In this document: one piece after another, positions 32,995-40,581 of the stretch | Layout: each line of letters starts with the position of its first letter | Numbering within the stretch: position 1 is the stretch's first letter | NCBI GenBank assembly: GCA_938034385.1 | Contig: CALHLC010000023.1 | Location: 1 to 47,197 of the forward strand | Direction: 5' to 3' | Length of the DNA: 47,197 nucleotides | Source of the DNA: an uncultured Bacteriovoracaceae bacterium | GTDB lineage: Bacteria; Bdellovibrionota; Bacteriovoracia; Bacteriovoracales; Bacteriovoracaceae | The notes under the pieces: model-generated | What the model was told of the DNA's origin: nothing | Seen by the model: only the letters and a program-made list of their open reading frames with translations | The model's database searches: none | Made by a program: the position numbers and the translations under genes

Positions 32995-34536
32995 CTAAAA
33001 TTCAATTTTCCTATCATTGTTTGTTGAACTTGAGCTTTTTGGCTGTATGTGAGCATACCTTGCTCTATTTTTTGCCCAATTTCTAAGATTATCAAGTGGC
33101 TCTTTATAAGTGACAGATAAAGGAACTATTTTCTTTATGGCCATTTCAAGGTGTCCTATTTCAACACTCTTGTTCTCAAAGAAGGCAAAGTGTAATGCCT
33201 CTGTAACAGAATGCTCTATTTCCGCACCTGAAAACCCCTCAGTCATGCTAATAACCCTGCTCAAATCCCAATCATCTGATTTTACTTTTTTCTTTCGAAG
33301 ATGAACTTTATAGATTTCATCTCTAGCATCTGGAGTAGGAAGATCTAGAAAAAAAATTTCATCAAACCTTCCTCTTCTTAATAATTCAGGTGGCAATTCA
33401 TCTATCTGATTGGCAGTTGCTATAACAAAAACTTGTGATTTTTTCTCTTGCATCCATGTTAAGAAAGTCCCAAAAACTCTAGTCGATGTTCCACTATCAT
33501 GACTCCCAGAGCTAGCTCCCGATAGTCCTTTTTCTATTTCATCTATCCATAAAATCACAGGAGCCACCGATTCTGCAGTCCTTAGGGCCTGGCGCATATT
33601 CTCTTCAGATGAACCTACAAGGCCTGAAAAAATACTTCCAAAATCTAAGCGCAGCAAAGGCATAGTCCAAACATTTCCAATAACTTTTGCTGTAAAACTC
33701 TTTCCGCAACCTGGTGCACCTAATAATAAAACTCCTTTAGGAGCAGGAATTCCAAACTCTTTGGCCTCTGGAGCAAATGCTTTTTTTCTAATATTTAGCC
33801 ACTGCTTTAATTGGTTTAAACCACCAACATCAGAAAGCCTTCCATCTGAAGGATAAAACTCTAAGGTTCCAGACTTTCTAATTACTTGTTGTTTTTCTTG
33901 AAAAACAAGCTTTATATCATCAGCATTTAATTTTCTATTACTAACTATTGCTTTAGAGAATGCATTTTCTGCTTCACTCAAGGTTAGCCCTTGTGCGGCC
34001 CTAGCGAGCTCTTTTGCTTCAGATTTTTTTATATCAACTACATCTGAGTTTGTTTTCATTACTGACTTGGCCATAGATAGTAATAATTCGTGTAATTCCT
34101 CTTCATCTGGCAAAGGGATATCAACAATAGAAATAGATTTTTCAAGCTCTGATGGAAGATTTAAAATAGGAGCTGAGATAAGAATTGTCTTATAAGTTCC
34201 GGCCAATTCAGCTGCAGCGTCTCTTAATCTTCTAATAACATGTGGATCCTCTAAAAAGACATGGAAATCTTTGAATAAAAAAATAGCGGGATCTTTATAT
34301 TCCATAACATGATTTAGAGCTTCTGATGGATCTTGAAATTGATCTTGCTTTTTTGGGCTTGTTCCAAATTTATTCATGCCTTGAGTTGCTGTCCAAGAAT
34401 AGAGAGTTTTGTTTTGCTTTCCTGCAAGCTCTCCTAATAAGTTTTCTAATCTATTTTCTTCATGTGTAACTAAATATAAAATTGAATACCTAGAACGAAT
34501 TAATATATCTATCTCAGAAAGTGTCTCTTTTATCAT
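32995..34536 (-). CDS. ycf46: AAA+ ATPase of the Ycf46 type
   Basis: 513 residues. The N-terminal 220-residue part begins LSEIDILIRSRYSILYLVTH, a signature of Ycf46 proteins, and looks like a degenerate RecA-type fold. The AAA+ module follows: Walker A GAPGCGKS (273-280), Walker B ILWIDEIE (328-335), sensor ATAN (373-376) and Arg finger RRGRFDE (387-393), then the helical lid (EGFSGAEIEHSV). All catalytic residues are present, so it should hydrolyse ATP. In cyanobacteria Ycf46 has been linked to photosynthesis or carbon uptake, which cannot apply here. The genes downstream (lysine-rich protein, DUF1257, DUF2997) form the typical neighbourhood. Confidence 0.88.
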   Translation of the reverse strand: MIKETLSEIDILIRSRYSILYLVTHEENRLENLLGELAGKQNKTLYSWTATQGMNKFGTSPKKQDQFQDPSEALNHVMEYKDPAIFLFKDFHVFLEDPHVIRRLRDAAAELAGTYKTILISAPILNLPSELEKSISIVDIPLPDEEELHELLLSMAKSVMKTNSDVVDIKKSEAKELARAAQGLTLSEAENAFSKAIVSNRKLNADDIKLVFQEKQQVIRKSGTLEFYPSDGRLSDVGGLNQLKQWLNIRKKAFAPEAKEFGIPAPKGVLLLGAPGCGKSFTAKVIGNVWTMPLLRLDFGSIFSGLVGSSEENMRQALRTAESVAPVILWIDEIEKGLSGASSGSHDSGTSTRVFGTFLTWMQEKKSQVFVIATANQIDELPPELLRRGRFDEIFFLDLPTPDARDEIYKVHLRKKKVKSDDWDLSRVISMTEGFSGAEIEHSVTEALHFAFFENKSVEIGHLEMAIKKIVPLSVTYKEPLDNLRNWAKNRARYAHIQPKSSSSTNNDRKIEF

Positions 34537-34568
34537 AGGAAAATGTTAGCTTGAATTTGCCTTTAGGT

Positions 34569-35495
34569 CTATAAACCTAAATATTTGACCGAGCAATTGA
34601 TCTTCAAACTTGGAGCACTAAATTTATTCATAGGCTTACAACGTATTTGAAGAAGTTTATTATCTAGAGAGAGTTCAAAACTAAATTTATCAACTGGTCT
34701 CTCAAGAAGTTTAAAATCATCTACCACACTAAAAGAATCAACTAAGACTTCAGACACTTGATACTCATCTGTTCCTGAATGAAAACAAATTAAATGATCA
34801 ATATCCTTAGAACTAAAACCTAAGAGACTTGATAATTTCTCAGGTTTATCCAAAGAGAGTTTAAAATAATCATAGAAAACTGAACTTACCTTTTTCATAT
34901 ATTCCTGATAAATATTTTTTTCTTGCCCTTTAAGCTCTCCAGGTAATTCAGTAAATCCACTAGGCCAATTTACAAATCCACTTTCATAATCAAGATCATG
35001 AAATTCAAACATTTGTCTTGAAAAGTGATCAAAGCAAAGATCTAAATCTTTGTTAAATGATTTTTGAGTTTTCTCATCATTAAAATATTTTTCAAAAAAA
35101 CTTTTTGCCCCAGCACTTTTAGTATTGATATAACTTTTAACCTTACACAGTTTAATCGAGACTTTATAGTCTCTCTCTCCTACTAGAATTAAATCTGCTT
35201 CTGACTCGTGAGTTTGTGAAGTCAACATAATTTCAGTAATTTTTTCAGGCTTAATAAAATCAAAATAACTAGTAGAGAGTCTCCTTGCGATCAGTCCTAA
35301 TTGATTTAATAGGTTTCGATCACTATTTCTAATAGCTAATTCATAAGATTGAAGTTGAAGTTTATATTCATGATTCAAATTACCTATAAACTCTTTAAAA
35401 AGGTCAAACTTCTTAGCAAATTCTAAAGCTACTAAATATTCTAATAAAGACCCTTTGTATGCGTTTAAATATGCTTCTTTTTTACTGTTTCTCAT
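34569..35495 (-). CDS. PD-(D/E)XK nuclease-like protein
   Basis: 308 residues. The N-terminal helix GSLLEYLVALEFAKKF has the conserved Gly/Glu spacing seen in restriction-type nucleases. HESEADLILVGERDYKVSIK then gives the two core strands with Asp (E-A-D) and the S-x-K catalytic motif about twelve residues apart. The following TKSAGAKSFFEKYF resembles segments in restriction-like proteins. The remaining 150 residues are an all-alpha/beta mix without known motifs. No DNA methylase or partner is nearby. Its ATG overlaps the stop of the FAD gene (TAATG). It could be a DNA-repair, restriction-like or prey-DNA nuclease; the fold assignment is by eye. Confidence 0.5.
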   Translation of the reverse strand: MRNSKKEAYLNAYKGSLLEYLVALEFAKKFDLFKEFIGNLNHEYKLQLQSYELAIRNSDRNLLNQLGLIARRLSTSYFDFIKPEKITEIMLTSQTHESEADLILVGERDYKVSIKLCKVKSYINTKSAGAKSFFEKYFNDEKTQKSFNKDLDLCFDHFSRQMFEFHDLDYESGFVNWPSGFTELPGELKGQEKNIYQEYMKKVSSVFYDYFKLSLDKPEKLSSLLGFSSKDIDHLICFHSGTDEYQVSEVLVDSFSVVDDFKLLERPVDKFSFELSLDNKLLQIRCKPMNKFSAPSLKINCSVKYLGL

Positions 35496-36421
35496 TATAT
35501 TTTTTCTACTATCATTTCACTTAACTCTTTTGCTGCAAGTAGTGAAAACTGATAACCATTTTTGAAATACCCGCCATTAACATAGACATTGTCACTAAAC
35601 TCTTTCCATACAGGTAATCGTTTAATCATTTTATGTCGAAAAGATCGAACTAAATCAAACTCACTAAAACTAGGCAATTCAAAGTCATACTCCTTCAATG
35701 TCTTAAAGCTGGCCTTAAGATGCTCAAAGTCTTTCATTGCTATAATTTCGTTACCAGTGGAGCTGCCTATAATGAGTTGATTATATTTTTTTCTAAAAAT
35801 TAAATTACAATGATCCATAGTGATAGAAAATGAATGCTTAAAATCAAACCTTGTACTTAAATAAGCACCACTGGTCACCTTGGAATCTAGTGCAGGATTA
35901 AAATATTTCAGATAATGACCTGAACAATCAACGACTAAGTCATAATCACTTAATTGTCCATAATCACAAATTGCTTTTTCTACTCTTGTATTTTGATTAA
36001 GTGAACGTAATCTTTTCAAATATTCTTCAGGATAAAATAAATAGGCATCTTCACTATACACATATCCATATTTTGATCTTTGTGCTTGAGGGTACTTCCT
36101 ATGATAGTCAACTCCGTTACCATATTCTCGATGAGTAATAATCTCTATGTCGTCAAAAAACTGTTGCTTATACTTTTCATAGAAACGTTCCAACTCAATA
36201 AAGCTTTTATTTAGTAAGTCACCATATTCACTTATTCCATCTGGAACATTTCTATTAGCAACGATGGCAGTAGACTTGATTGAAGATTTAGGGAAAAGTG
36301 ATTCATTAAAAAATTGAGTAACTTCTATGTCAGAAGTTGCCTTTAGAAGATAGAAAATAAAAGTATTTGCTGCAACTCCATCGCCTATCACAACACAACT
36401 TTTCTTGACTTTCTTAGTCAT
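35495..36421 (-). CDS. FAD/NAD(P)-binding oxidoreductase-like protein
   Basis: 308 residues from the ATG at 36419-36421 (AGAGGG upstream). A start 36 bases further up would overlap the divergent subtilase leader. The N-terminus KKSCVVIGDGVAANTFIFYL is a Rossmann dinucleotide-binding motif (G-x-G-x-x-A). The later DYDLVVDCSGHYLKYFNPAL corresponds to the second FAD contact of DAO-like oxidases, and the C-terminus has VNGGYFKNGYQFSLLAA, the 'GG..g.G...s...g..la' FAD site. No further catalytic signature is apparent. It is the first gene of the minus-strand run to the Ycf46 module and is coupled to the nuclease-like gene. Substrate unknown. Confidence 0.65.
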   Translation of the reverse strand: MTKKVKKSCVVIGDGVAANTFIFYLLKATSDIEVTQFFNESLFPKSSIKSTAIVANRNVPDGISEYGDLLNKSFIELERFYEKYKQQFFDDIEIITHREYGNGVDYHRKYPQAQRSKYGYVYSEDAYLFYPEEYLKRLRSLNQNTRVEKAICDYGQLSDYDLVVDCSGHYLKYFNPALDSKVTSGAYLSTRFDFKHSFSITMDHCNLIFRKKYNQLIIGSSTGNEIIAMKDFEHLKASFKTLKEYDFELPSFSEFDLVRSFRHKMIKRLPVWKEFSDNVYVNGGYFKNGYQFSLLAAKELSEMIVEKI

Positions 36422-36466
36422 TATACCCTCTAATTGAAGTACTTTAAATTCGATCATGGAGAGACG

Positions 36467-38116
36467 ATGAACAAAATTACTTTGATTCTATTTTTTATCA
36501 CTTCTTTAAGTTTTGCTCAAACTTTTAAATCTAAACCTTTGAAAAGGCAAATGATTCCTGGTGAGCTCATTGTTATTTGTAAAAGCAATTGCATTGGTGC
36601 CTTTAAAAAGAAATTTGGTCCACAAGCAGTAGTGAAAGTTCACAGCAAAAAGAAAAATAAATATTCGATGATAAAACTTACAGGCATCACCAATAGCCAA
36701 TTTTCATCATTATCAAAAAATTTAAAAAACCCAGATATTATCATGGGACCAAACTATCAATACATCGGTGACCCTAGAGAGTCTATTGCAAGGGTCGATG
36801 ATCCACTTTTAAAAGATCAAGATCATCATAAAATCATTAAATCTAAAGCAGCATGGGAAGCTCATGGTGTTGGAAGTAATGAAATAGTGGTGGCTATTAC
36901 AGATGATGGAGTAAGTCTTAAACACGATGATCTTAAAGATGCTATTTGGAAAAATTCAAAAGAAATAGCAGATAATGGTATTGATGATGATAATAATGGA
37001 TATATTGATGATGTGAACGGATGGGACTTTTCGGACGATGATAATGATCCAAATGGTGGATCTCATGGTACTCACGTTGCAGGAATTGTTGCTGCAACAA
37101 TTAATAATGGATCCGGAGGTGCTGGAATTGCACCAGGTGTAAAAATCATGCCTATTCGGTGGTACGGAGGAAGCAATAGATGGACTTCAGAAATTATTTC
37201 TAAGTCATATTTATATGCTGTAAATAATGGTGCTCATATTATTAATACTAGTTATAACATAGACGGATTTGTTAACGATAAAGTTTATAGAGAAGTCGTA
37301 AAGCTAGTAAAAGAATCTGGAGTTATACTTTTTAACTCTGCAGGAAATGGAAATAGAAAAGATCCTCCTAGAGGAAAAATAGAAGAAGTTGTTTTAGTGG
37401 CAGCACTAGATTCAGACTTAGATAATAACAAAATCGACTCACGAGCTTATTTTTCTAATTATGGAAAAGGCATAGATATCGCAGCTCCAGGTCACCCTAT
37501 CTACTCTACAACTTTAAATGGAAAATATGGTGATATGTCTGGAACAAGTATGGCAGCTCCCGCTGCAGCTGGTGTTGCAGCTCTTATTTGGTCACATAAT
37601 AAAGATTTTAAAAGCGAGCAAGTCCTAGCAAGATTATATGCAGGGGTTGATAACATTGATGATAAAAACCCAAGTCATGTTGGACAACTTGGAGTAGGAA
37701 GAATTAATTTATTCAAGGCCCTAAGCACAAACCTTAAAGACCCAGTAAACCTAACTATTTCTCTTCCTTCCAAATCAATGAAGCGAAATAAAAACTCAGG
37801 AAAACTTGAGTTTTATTTAAAAGTAAACACAAAGATAAGCTCAAGTACTATCAAATCGGTAACTTATTTAAAAATCACTAAGCCTAAACTTAGAGGACAA
37901 ATTAAATATATCAAAAAAGATGTAGAGACAACTTATGATGCAAAGAAAGGTCTAATAAGGTTTACATTTGCTGAAGACTTAGTAGCTGGTAAATATATTA
38001 TTAAAATGCCTAAGAAGTTTATCATTGCAGGCAAAAAAGATAAATTATTTAAAGACACGAAAGCAGTCTCTAAAAAAGCTGCTTATTATATTATAAACGT
38101 GCCGCCAAAGAGCTAA
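36467..38116 (+). CDS. Secreted subtilisin-family (S8) serine protease
   Basis: 549 residues from the ATG at 36467 (GGAGAG upstream), which gives a proper signal peptide (MNKITLILFFITSLSFAQ). A pro-region lies at about 20-120 (GELIVICKSNC...), followed by the catalytic domain: Asp in AITDDGVSLKHDDL, His in GGSHGTHVAGIVAA, Asn in NSAGNGN and Ser in GDMSGTSMAAPAAAGVAALI. A repeat-rich beta domain of about 150 residues follows and may assist secretion or substrate binding. A second acidic segment (IDDDNNGYIDDVNGWD) resembles calcium sites of bacterial subtilases. All catalytic residues are present. For a predator it is a plausible prey-degrading enzyme. It ends 26 bp inside the convergent ATP-grasp gene. 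Confidence 0.93.
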   Translation: MNKITLILFFITSLSFAQTFKSKPLKRQMIPGELIVICKSNCIGAFKKKFGPQAVVKVHSKKKNKYSMIKLTGITNSQFSSLSKNLKNPDIIMGPNYQYIGDPRESIARVDDPLLKDQDHHKIIKSKAAWEAHGVGSNEIVVAITDDGVSLKHDDLKDAIWKNSKEIADNGIDDDNNGYIDDVNGWDFSDDDNDPNGGSHGTHVAGIVAATINNGSGGAGIAPGVKIMPIRWYGGSNRWTSEIISKSYLYAVNNGAHIINTSYNIDGFVNDKVYREVVKLVKESGVILFNSAGNGNRKDPPRGKIEEVVLVAALDSDLDNNKIDSRAYFSNYGKGIDIAAPGHPIYSTTLNGKYGDMSGTSMAAPAAAGVAALIWSHNKDFKSEQVLARLYAGVDNIDDKNPSHVGQLGVGRINLFKALSTNLKDPVNLTISLPSKSMKRNKNSGKLEFYLKVNTKISSSTIKSVTYLKITKPKLRGQIKYIKKDVETTYDAKKGLIRFTFAEDLVAGKYIIKMPKKFIIAGKKDKLFKDTKAVSKKAAYYIINVPPKS

Positions 38117-39119
38117 ACTTGTTAATAGCTTGATTAATCAATTTTTGAATTAACTCTTCATATCTTATGCCCTGATGTATAGCACTCAGGGCAAACTCAT
38201 CATCAATTGCTAGATTAGGATTAGAATTAGCTTCTAATACATATATCTGGGATTCTTTAGTTACTCTAAAGTCTACTCTCGCATATGAATCTAGTTTTAA
38301 TGCTTTATAGACCTCTCTAGAGATACTTTTTAATTTCTTTTCTAAGTGATCTGAGATATTTGCTTTTTGTGACTTAATTCCATGCCTTAATCTATAGCTC
38401 TCATTAAACTTTGCATTTTCAGAATAAATTTCTTTTTCTGGATCTTTAATATTTTTATAAACCAACTCCCAAGCAGGAAGAGTTTTTATTTTATTTGTTC
38501 CAAGTATGCCTACAAAGAACTCTTTTCCTTCTATGAATTCTTCTACCAATGCATGTGTTTGAAACCTTTTATGAATAAAGCCTACTCTTTTTGCTAACTC
38601 TAAATTATTTGAAACAATTGATGACTTTGAAATTCCCAAAGAGGCCTCTTCATTTAGACATTTCACTATTAAGGGAAAGCTTAGAGTCGATTTTATTTTT
38701 CTTTTTGATTTCAATGGGTAAATCTCAAACCTTGGAGTTAAAATTCCATGATATGAAAATATCTTTTTGCTCAATGCTTTATCCCTTGCGATCATCAAGG
38801 CCTTTGATGAACAACCTGTATAGGCCATCCCTAATGTTTCAAGATAAGCTACAATATTAGAATCCATTACAGCTTCATTATTTAATTGCTCTAATAAGTT
38901 AAAAACAATATCTGGTTTATATTTTTCAATTGCTTGTTTAATAGGTCCAAGGTCAAACTCTACTTCTTGAACATATACCTTATGCCCCAGGTCTTTAAGA
39001 GTATTAATCACATCATACTCACACATCCAAGAATGTTTATCTCTATCAATTTTTTTGATAACACCCGCATTAGCTGGATTAAGTGATGGATGTAGAATGA
39101 CTAGAACTTTTTTTATCAA
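38091..39119 (-). CDS. ATP-grasp ligase related to D-alanine-D-alanine ligase
   Basis: 342 residues, starting with TTG at 39117-39119 that overlaps the upstream TGA by four bases (TTGA). The N-terminal fold starts VLVILHPSLNP and contains DIVFNLLEQLNNEAVMDSNI, close to the 'vfn..HG..GEDG' site of Ddl, though the HG motif is missing. ATP-binding features are LMIARDKALSKKIF and LPLIVKCLNEEASLGISK. Metal ligands are in YARVDFR and LEANSNPNLA. The residue choice at the substrate site differs from true Ddl, so it may join other amino acids or a peptide. It forms one unit with a HExxH peptidase and a lipoprotein. The ATP-grasp class is certain. Confidence 0.8.
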   Translation of the reverse strand: MIKKVLVILHPSLNPANAGVIKKIDRDKHSWMCEYDVINTLKDLGHKVYVQEVEFDLGPIKQAIEKYKPDIVFNLLEQLNNEAVMDSNIVAYLETLGMAYTGCSSKALMIARDKALSKKIFSYHGILTPRFEIYPLKSKRKIKSTLSFPLIVKCLNEEASLGISKSSIVSNNLELAKRVGFIHKRFQTHALVEEFIEGKEFFVGILGTNKIKTLPAWELVYKNIKDPEKEIYSENAKFNESYRLRHGIKSQKANISDHLEKKLKSISREVYKALKLDSYARVDFRVTKESQIYVLEANSNPNLAIDDEFALSAIHQGIRYEELIQKLINQAINKFSSLAARL

Positions 39120-40060
39120 ACAATAACCTTATGAAATTCACTAAACATGTTTTTAGTACCCTCTTGTATAAGGATATCAGTGAATTTCATAAGTTTGTAA
39201 TCAGGGAGAGATTTACTTGAGTATTTTATTTCGTATGTGTTTTTTATGGCATTATATAGTGGAGTTACTTGGTAGTCTTTCAAGACAAAGTTACTCGCTA
39301 ATTTGTTTATTATTTTAAGTTCATCTTGATAGGCAAGATGACGAGGAATATTTTGAAATTTTTGTAAACAATTATTTTTATATTTTATTTTATATAATTT
39401 AGTTTTTTCTAAAAAATATTGCTCTAAAGTTCTAGCATCCTCTTTATAAGAACCTGCTTGTTCATTATTCATTTTTTTTTGTCGCCTATCTAATGAATTC
39501 ATTACTGAATCAAGATAGACTAATTTTTCTAAGGCCTTAGAAGTATACATATTTTTCCAGTTTGACTTTGGATCTAACCAAACAGCAAATGTTTCGGCCC
39601 AATCTTCTTCTGGATGAGATTGTGCATATTTATCATCAAGATTTTCAACAAATTCTTCACTTTGGGACTTAGGATAGTACGAATCTGGATAAGGAGTAGA
39701 AGAAAGTCCAAATAGGCCCTGTCTCTTTTTTAGCTTTCTTAAACCATAGGCATTATCAAGACAATGAGCAATTTCATGTCGAATAATTTTTTTTATATAT
39801 TCATTATCTTTTTCTTCAATTCTTTTTAAAAACTTTAACTCTAGATCTTTAACTTTTTTATCACATAAATAGAAAGGAAGAGCGATACTTGTCTGCCCAT
39901 CAGCAACAAACCATTCATCTGATATATAAAAATGTATTTTAAAACTAATACCTCTAGAACATAATTCTTGCTCAACATGCTCAAATGCATCTTGAATGTG
40001 ATTAGGGACTTTAAAATTGAAGTCCCTAATTAATCGATTAGATAAATTGAGAGAACTCAT
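39116..40060 (-). CDS. Putative zinc metallopeptidase of the ligase/lipoprotein unit
   Basis: 314 residues without signal peptide. The zinc motif is IIRHEIAHCLDNAYGL (His95, Glu96, His99), and the distal SHPEEDWAETFAVWLDP supplies a third ligand, probably Glu156. This combination (HExxH plus E-D-W/F-A-E-T-x-A) resembles the 'putative zinc-binding metallo-peptidase' group, PF15887-like. The C-terminal 110 residues are helical and charged. It starts at the stop of the lipoprotein gene (TAATG) and its stop overlaps the ligase start, so all three are coupled. The lack of an export signal suggests it acts inside the cell, on the product or substrate of the ligase. Activity is not proved. Confidence 0.7.
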   Translation of the reverse strand: MSSLNLSNRLIRDFNFKVPNHIQDAFEHVEQELCSRGISFKIHFYISDEWFVADGQTSIALPFYLCDKKVKDLELKFLKRIEEKDNEYIKKIIRHEIAHCLDNAYGLRKLKKRQGLFGLSSTPYPDSYYPKSQSEEFVENLDDKYAQSHPEEDWAETFAVWLDPKSNWKNMYTSKALEKLVYLDSVMNSLDRRQKKMNNEQAGSYKEDARTLEQYFLEKTKLYKIKYKNNCLQKFQNIPRHLAYQDELKIINKLASNFVLKDYQVTPLYNAIKNTYEIKYSSKSLPDYKLMKFTDILIQEGTKNMFSEFHKVIV

Positions 40061-40581
40061 TATCTATAAAGAGTAAAACTTCCAAGCTCATCACTGATTA
40101 GAGATGCTTTTAATATTTTTTGAATATTTGAAGAATTCTCATTATTGATCACTATGTCTTTAGTCATTGAGTTTGATTTTACATACTTAATCTTAAGGTC
40201 TTTAAGTTTAGAAAGATCAAAAGAAACAGGGACTATATTTAATCCCATATCATCGTGATAAAGATTATACACAGAGTAAGTACCGTCTTCATTTTTTAAT
40301 TCACCATAGACCTTAGATCCAATTGAGCATGTCTTCATAATAAACTTAAAGTTATCTTCAAGATCAACAGAGTATTTGTTGTTTTTCTCACTAAAACTAG
40401 AAATTAGAACATCACTATATTCAGCAGTTGTCTTAGGACTTTGAGAACTTAAAATATATGCTCCGTCTTGAAGTCCTAAATTAACAGATTTTTGCTTCTC
40501 ACAAATTGATTTAGATAAGACAAACTCATTACAAGAATTAAATACCAATAAAGTTAGGGCCATAAATAAGAAGTTTTTCAT
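40060..40581 (-). CDS. Lipoprotein, first gene of the ATP-grasp/peptidase unit
   Basis: 173 residues with a clear lipobox (LLVFNSC, Cys17) and a good ribosome site AAAGGAA before the ATG. The mature part is beta-rich (VNLGLQDGAYILSS, KFIMKTCSIGSKVYGEL) with two further Cys. Asn17-Glu after the Cys argues for outer-membrane sorting under the E. coli +2 rule, with the caveat that this rule is not tested in this group. It is translationally coupled to the peptidase gene. No family recognised. Confidence 0.72.
   Translation of the reverse strand: MKNFLFMALTLLVFNSCNEFVLSKSICEKQKSVNLGLQDGAYILSSQSPKTTAEYSDVLISSFSEKNNKYSVDLEDNFKFIMKTCSIGSKVYGELKNEDGTYSVYNLYHDDMGLNIVPVSFDLSKLKDLKIKYVKSNSMTKDIVINNENSSNIQKILKASLISDELGSFTLYR

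Follow-up and report, generated by a model that had tools for sequence, protein, structure and literature searches.

A conserved two-gene operon of a predicted zinc peptidase and a Ddl-like ATP-grasp ligase in three bacterial phyla

The locus lies in a window of 47,197 nucleotides (the whole stretch of DNA analysed), which is contig 23 of the 2.67 Mb genome of an uncultured bacterium whose named relatives are Bacteriovoracaceae and Halobacteriovorax. Three adjoining genes occupy the minus strand, with the signal-peptide and lipobox assignments made by eye:

40060-40581, minus strand: putative lipoprotein gene, 173 aa, with a signal sequence ending FNSC17
40058-40062, minus strand: TAATG junction of the lipoprotein and peptidase genes, 1-base overlap
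39116-40060, minus strand: peptidase gene, 314 aa, with no visible signal peptide
39116-39119, minus strand: TTGA junction, the TTG start of the ligase gene lying over the TGA stop of the peptidase gene, 4-base overlap
38091-39119, minus strand: ligase gene, 342 aa, with a TTG start

The initial annotation had described three minus-strand reading frames joined by these two overlaps and a lipoprotein with Cys17, and all of this was found again. The overlaps suggest that the genes are co-translated. The 4-base overlap between peptidase and ligase recurs in most relatives, those of three phyla included. Comparison with a sister genome indicates purifying selection on all three genes, with dN/dS values of 0.27 for the peptidase, 0.06 for the ligase and 0.16 for the lipoprotein that are rough, as dS exceeds 1 and is near saturation. 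Nearby, a convergent S8 subtilase gene (36434-38116, plus strand) shares 26 bases with the ligase gene at its 3' end, and an operon-like run (32995-36457, minus strand) encodes a Cdc48/FtsH-like AAA+ ATPase, a protein that matches no family and a DAO-like protein.

In profile searches, the ligase matched Dala_Dala_lig_C with 103.3 bits (cut-off 24) and the RimK domain weakly, with 28.4 bits. Its scores against the Ddl families were far below their cut-offs (PRK01372.1, 137.3 bits against 243; TIGR01205, 120.7 against 245.65), and the VanA family gave 56.6 bits against a cut-off of 775. The genome's own Ddl is encoded elsewhere and exceeds the cut-off of NF002527 (323.1 against 310 bits). Two stretches of the ligase gene are informative in the alignment of the two proteins:

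38889-38900, minus strand: NLLE, ligase residues 74-77, in place of the Ddl HG site; N74 and E77 are invariant
38226-38273, minus strand: stretch with D283, E296 and N298, the Mg2+/ATP ligands as aligned to Ddl

The ATP/Mg2+ residues of Ddl are kept in the ligase (K153, D283, E296 and N298); D283, E296 and N298 are invariant in one alignment of 35 rows and present in 35 of 36 rows of another, in which one row is incomplete. In contrast, the HG site, the N-terminal loop, the Ser/Tyr positions and the C-terminal SL motif of Ddl, whose roles we take to be those of E. coli DdlB, are all replaced. N74, E77, H10, E34, H124 and R178 are invariant across 35 aligned ligases. The AlphaFold model (mean pLDDT 89) has D-Ala-D-Ala ligases as its best structural matches, and in a tree all 90 ligases group in one clade that excludes three true Ddl sequences, with a support of 1.0. 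One adjacent-ligase domain (L189) also falls inside this clade. By fold and by its Mg2+/ATP residues the protein belongs to the ATP-grasp superfamily, and sequence and model together suggest that it is probably an amide ligase other than Ddl. The identification of the ligase as the species' Ddl was rejected, given the scores far below the Ddl cut-offs, the lost recognition residues and the separate genuine Ddl. This agrees with the initial view of a Ddl-like ligase without the HG site, and the close match to a known Ddl of the species that would have counted against the initial proposal was not found. Sequence databases likely label such ligases 'D-alanine--D-alanine ligase', a name that the residue and score tests contradict.

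The peptidase scored 37.0 bits against PF15887 (Peptidase_Mx; cut-off 27), the match covering about 76 of 236 profile positions, and the same family was matched by all 36 aligned peptidases (E <= 0.01). Against TIGR04549 it reached 23.1 bits (cut-off 75) and showed no lipoprotein signal by eye, which places it outside that family. Its features are as follows:

39116-40060, minus strand: predicted zinc peptidase, a divergent PF15887 member, with a catalytic domain at about residues 12-193 and a variable helical C-terminal part
39764-39778, minus strand: HEIAH at residues 95-99, the zinc-binding motif; all 89 paired peptidases carry HExxH
39593-39616, minus strand: HPEEDWAE, residues 149-156, second active-site motif; EDWAET is residues 152-157

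The stricter pattern HPxED[WF]AE[TS]FA is found in 86 of the 89 paired peptidases, and the third zinc ligand would be E152. Both motifs of the cytoplasmic-looking zinc peptidase in the initial annotation, HEIAH and EDWAET, are therefore present, and a signal peptide is not visible. As all 36 aligned sequences match PF15887 and the gene is under purifying selection, the conserved, motif-bearing peptidase is not a chance reading frame. In the predicted structure (pLDDT 80), residues 12-193 or so resemble the catalytic domain of ATLF/PPEP zincins, with a VIA-align Z of up to 8.8 and an rmsd of 3.2 over 140 aligned residues; the Foldseek E-values (>= 0.14) are not significant. We read this likeness as a possible shared fold, and nothing in the model points to a secreted toxin. 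Evolution is faster in the peptidase than in the ligase, and two genomes (G034 and G091) have shortened peptidases, so the ligase appears to be the more constrained partner.

Peptidase_Mx relatives without a ligase, with other C-terminal parts, were seen on phage-like IMG/VR contigs (L201-L234). One (L215:4512-5690) lies next to terminase and portal genes, and its N-terminal part looks phosphatase-like by eye; another has a match to a superoxide dismutase C-terminal domain (L206:4509-6212).

The distribution of the two genes was examined in 291 genomes of Bdellovibrionota. Both are present in 89 and neither in 189, while 2 carry the peptidase only and 11 the ligase only, giving a Fisher p of about 1e-59 that is not corrected for relatedness. 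The ligase lies within 300 bp of the peptidase at 83 of the 93 peptidase loci in this set, and several of the other 10 are contig ends or have larger gaps. In the window's family, the peptidase occurs in 51 of 95 genomes; all of these genomes also gave a strong hit for a single-domain ligase, located near the peptidase in every case except G078, where the contigs split the locus. G091 has the ligase and only a remnant of the peptidase. The pair is present in Bdellovibrionota, Myxococcota and Acidobacteriota. At 64 of 70 loci fetched from these phyla, the peptidase is followed by the ligase on the same strand, with 4 bases as the commonest overlap (gaps estimated from profile starts). Of 20 loci fetched from outside the window's family, 17 show a complete ligase close to the peptidase, and another is truncated by the end of its contig. 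Distances among peptidases and among ligases correlate (r = 0.64 for 89 pairs; 0 of 1000 permutations), with species history not removed. A contig scan with near-query patterns yielded 14 loci, and the pair may also occur in phyla besides the three named.

Among ORFs of at least 70 aa, no third gene is common to the neighbourhoods of different groups. Gene clusters 2, 3, 4 and 6 were set aside as conserved neighbours, as their positions in GC-rich genomes suggest that they are shadow or antisense frames over the two genes. No peptidase-ligase fusion was present among the ORFs scanned, no plasmid-borne relatives were found by tblastn, and in the ligase-only genomes the neighbours, compared by eye, differ and include no common substitute partner. 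The literature searched contained no description of the pair, the ATP-grasp amidoligase survey of Iyer et al. 2009 lying outside that search. The conserved unit is a two-gene operon, with the peptidase gene first and the ligase gene usually overlapping its end, and not a trio. The coupling of ligase and peptidase in the initial annotation is upheld by its strong conservation; of the conserved linkage of three genes that went with it, the part concerning the pair stands and the part concerning the lipoprotein does not.

Several individual loci vary this arrangement. G189 has the pair in two separate copies (L104 and L105), and in G076 an M1-like metallopeptidase gene lies between peptidase and ligase (L180:2505-3896). 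At an acidobacterial locus, the place of the ligase after the peptidase is taken by a 564 aa protein with a 4-base overlap (L044:7805-10509), and ligase fragments are found at the ends of contigs in other parts of the genome. On a viral-classed contig the pair lies downstream of a gene for a tail-like protein (L200:4854-6973), which may be a prophage border.

Since the two genes stand side by side in three phyla, they probably constitute one uncharacterised make-and-cut module. In Pseudomonas, RimB removes the glutamates that the ATP-grasp ligase RimK adds to RpsF (PMC11957791), and we favour, with a probability of roughly 45% and formally in the manner of RimK and RimB, an amide ligase and a dedicated peptidase that share one intracellular substrate, with the peptidase trimming or undoing the ligase product. 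The ligase would use ATP to convert a carboxylate, from a substrate other than free D-Ala, into an acyl-phosphate and join it to an amine. The predicted zinc peptidase would hydrolyse an amide or peptide bond in this product, trimming or reversing the work of the ligase, and the pair would thereby set how abundant or how long a peptide-like modification or a small peptide is in the cytoplasm. We infer in this way the activity, the shared substrate, the opposing direction and the location of the two enzymes. Against such a make-and-undo cycle, no full peptidase is present in 11 ligase-bearing genomes, no conserved third gene hints at a substrate, and no fusion was seen; peptidases are shortened in two genomes, relatives stand alone on phage-like contigs, and the peptidase could act on something else.

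A second coupling bears on this proposal. In the window's family, 10 of 11 strong S58 (DmpA-type) peptidase loci adjoin a gene for a different Ddl-like ligase, which often has two domains in tandem and sometimes one; examples are at L198:1071-4643, at L199:4614-7740 and in other genomes of the family. This suggests a recurrent theme of ligase plus peptidase, and as the S58 pairing is independent, it makes the logic of the present pair more plausible. It is tempting, if rather unlikely, to go further and see a system that writes and erases a new peptide-like tag on a protein or a metabolite, in which a Ddl-like ligase would work with a Peptidase_Mx zincin in three phyla; a pairing of Ddl-like ligases with a peptidase would then have arisen on at least two occasions.

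Other readings of the pair were weighed against that of opposed action on a shared substrate. The two enzymes may instead act in sequence, with the peptidase cutting a precursor peptide or protein and the ligase then joining something to the exposed end. We regard this as a possible but unlikely course: the peptidase gene comes first in translation order and overlaps the ligase gene, and the predicted fold of the ligase is that of an amide ligase, yet among ORFs of at least 70 aa the neighbourhoods share no gene for a small precursor, and 11 genomes have the ligase without the peptidase. Remodelling of a wall precursor, with the ligase producing an altered dipeptide and the zinc peptidase breaking down the normal form, as VanA and VanX do, seems improbable. 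The Van arrangement consists of a cytoplasmic Ddl-like ligase and a zinc peptidase, which the pair matches, and the closest solved structures of the ligase are D-Ala-D-Ala ligases. However, the Ddl recognition residues are missing, the Van family scores are far below cut-off, and the two peptidases differ in family, PF15887 here and M15 for VanX. It is also doubtful that two enzymes of separate function merely share one transcript. Some genomes have one of them and lack the other, and lone peptidase relatives occur in phage-like contigs, but gene order and overlap are kept across three phyla though the neighbourhoods change, and co-occurrence is tight (both genes in 89 of 291 genomes).

The lipoprotein matched no family above cut-off in the profile searches. 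A close relative adjoins the pair in one sister genome only (L031; 53% identity, with the Cys conserved), where the lipoprotein and peptidase genes do not overlap; two weak relatives occur in G032, a genome of the same genus that lacks the pair, and marginal partial matches came from three more genomes. As its close relative is confined to one sister genome, the lipoprotein is best regarded as a lineage-specific neighbour, which may be co-transcribed with the pair in the window's genome. Its membership of the module, part of the initial annotation, was rejected, since it adjoins the pair only in the window and the sister genome and no third gene is conserved. A true trio with the lipoprotein as substrate or envelope receptor, a role also put forward there and to which nothing points, is very improbable: the gene is co-directional with a 1-base overlap, adjacent in L031 with its Cys conserved and under purifying selection, but it is beside the pair in no other genome searched, has relatives in G032 without the pair, and neither enzyme has a visible signal peptide.

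Compared with known systems, the pair resembles in its logic RimK/RimB (RimABK), in which a cytoplasmic ATP-grasp ligase is likewise encoded with a dedicated protease removing its additions (PMC11957791). RimB, however, is a retropepsin-like aspartic protease, whereas the partner here is an HExxH zincin of PF15887, and the best family of the ligase is Dala_Dala_lig_C (103.3 bits), not the RimK domain (28.4 bits). With Ddl and VanA the ligase shares the fold and the ATP/Mg2+ site, but other residues stand in place of the HG site, the N-terminal loop, the S/Y pair and the C-terminal SL motif. The peptidase has HExxH and HPxED..AE-like motifs in common with Peptidase_Mx and the TIGR04549 lipoproteins (4l7a); unlike the latter, it is not a lipoprotein and has an extra helical C-terminal part. 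Its identity to ATLF/PPEP zincins is 11-18%, a resemblance of fold at most, and no secretion signal is visible. The Anbu and rlo operons also combine an ATP-grasp gene with a protease-fold gene, with uncertain function (PMC6376114, PMC12239564). The Anbu operon comprises ATP-grasp, alpha-E, transglutaminase-like and proteasome-like Anbu genes, and the ATP-grasp class of these operons differs from that of the ligase; alpha-E, transglutaminase-like, Anbu and RloB neighbours are not conserved beside the pair, and the flanking genes in the window are of other families. An amide ligase and its own peptidase, encoded as one operon in three phyla, would be the mark of uncharacterised peptide-bond chemistry, and the enzyme pair is widespread and uncharacterised, yet of a known general kind.
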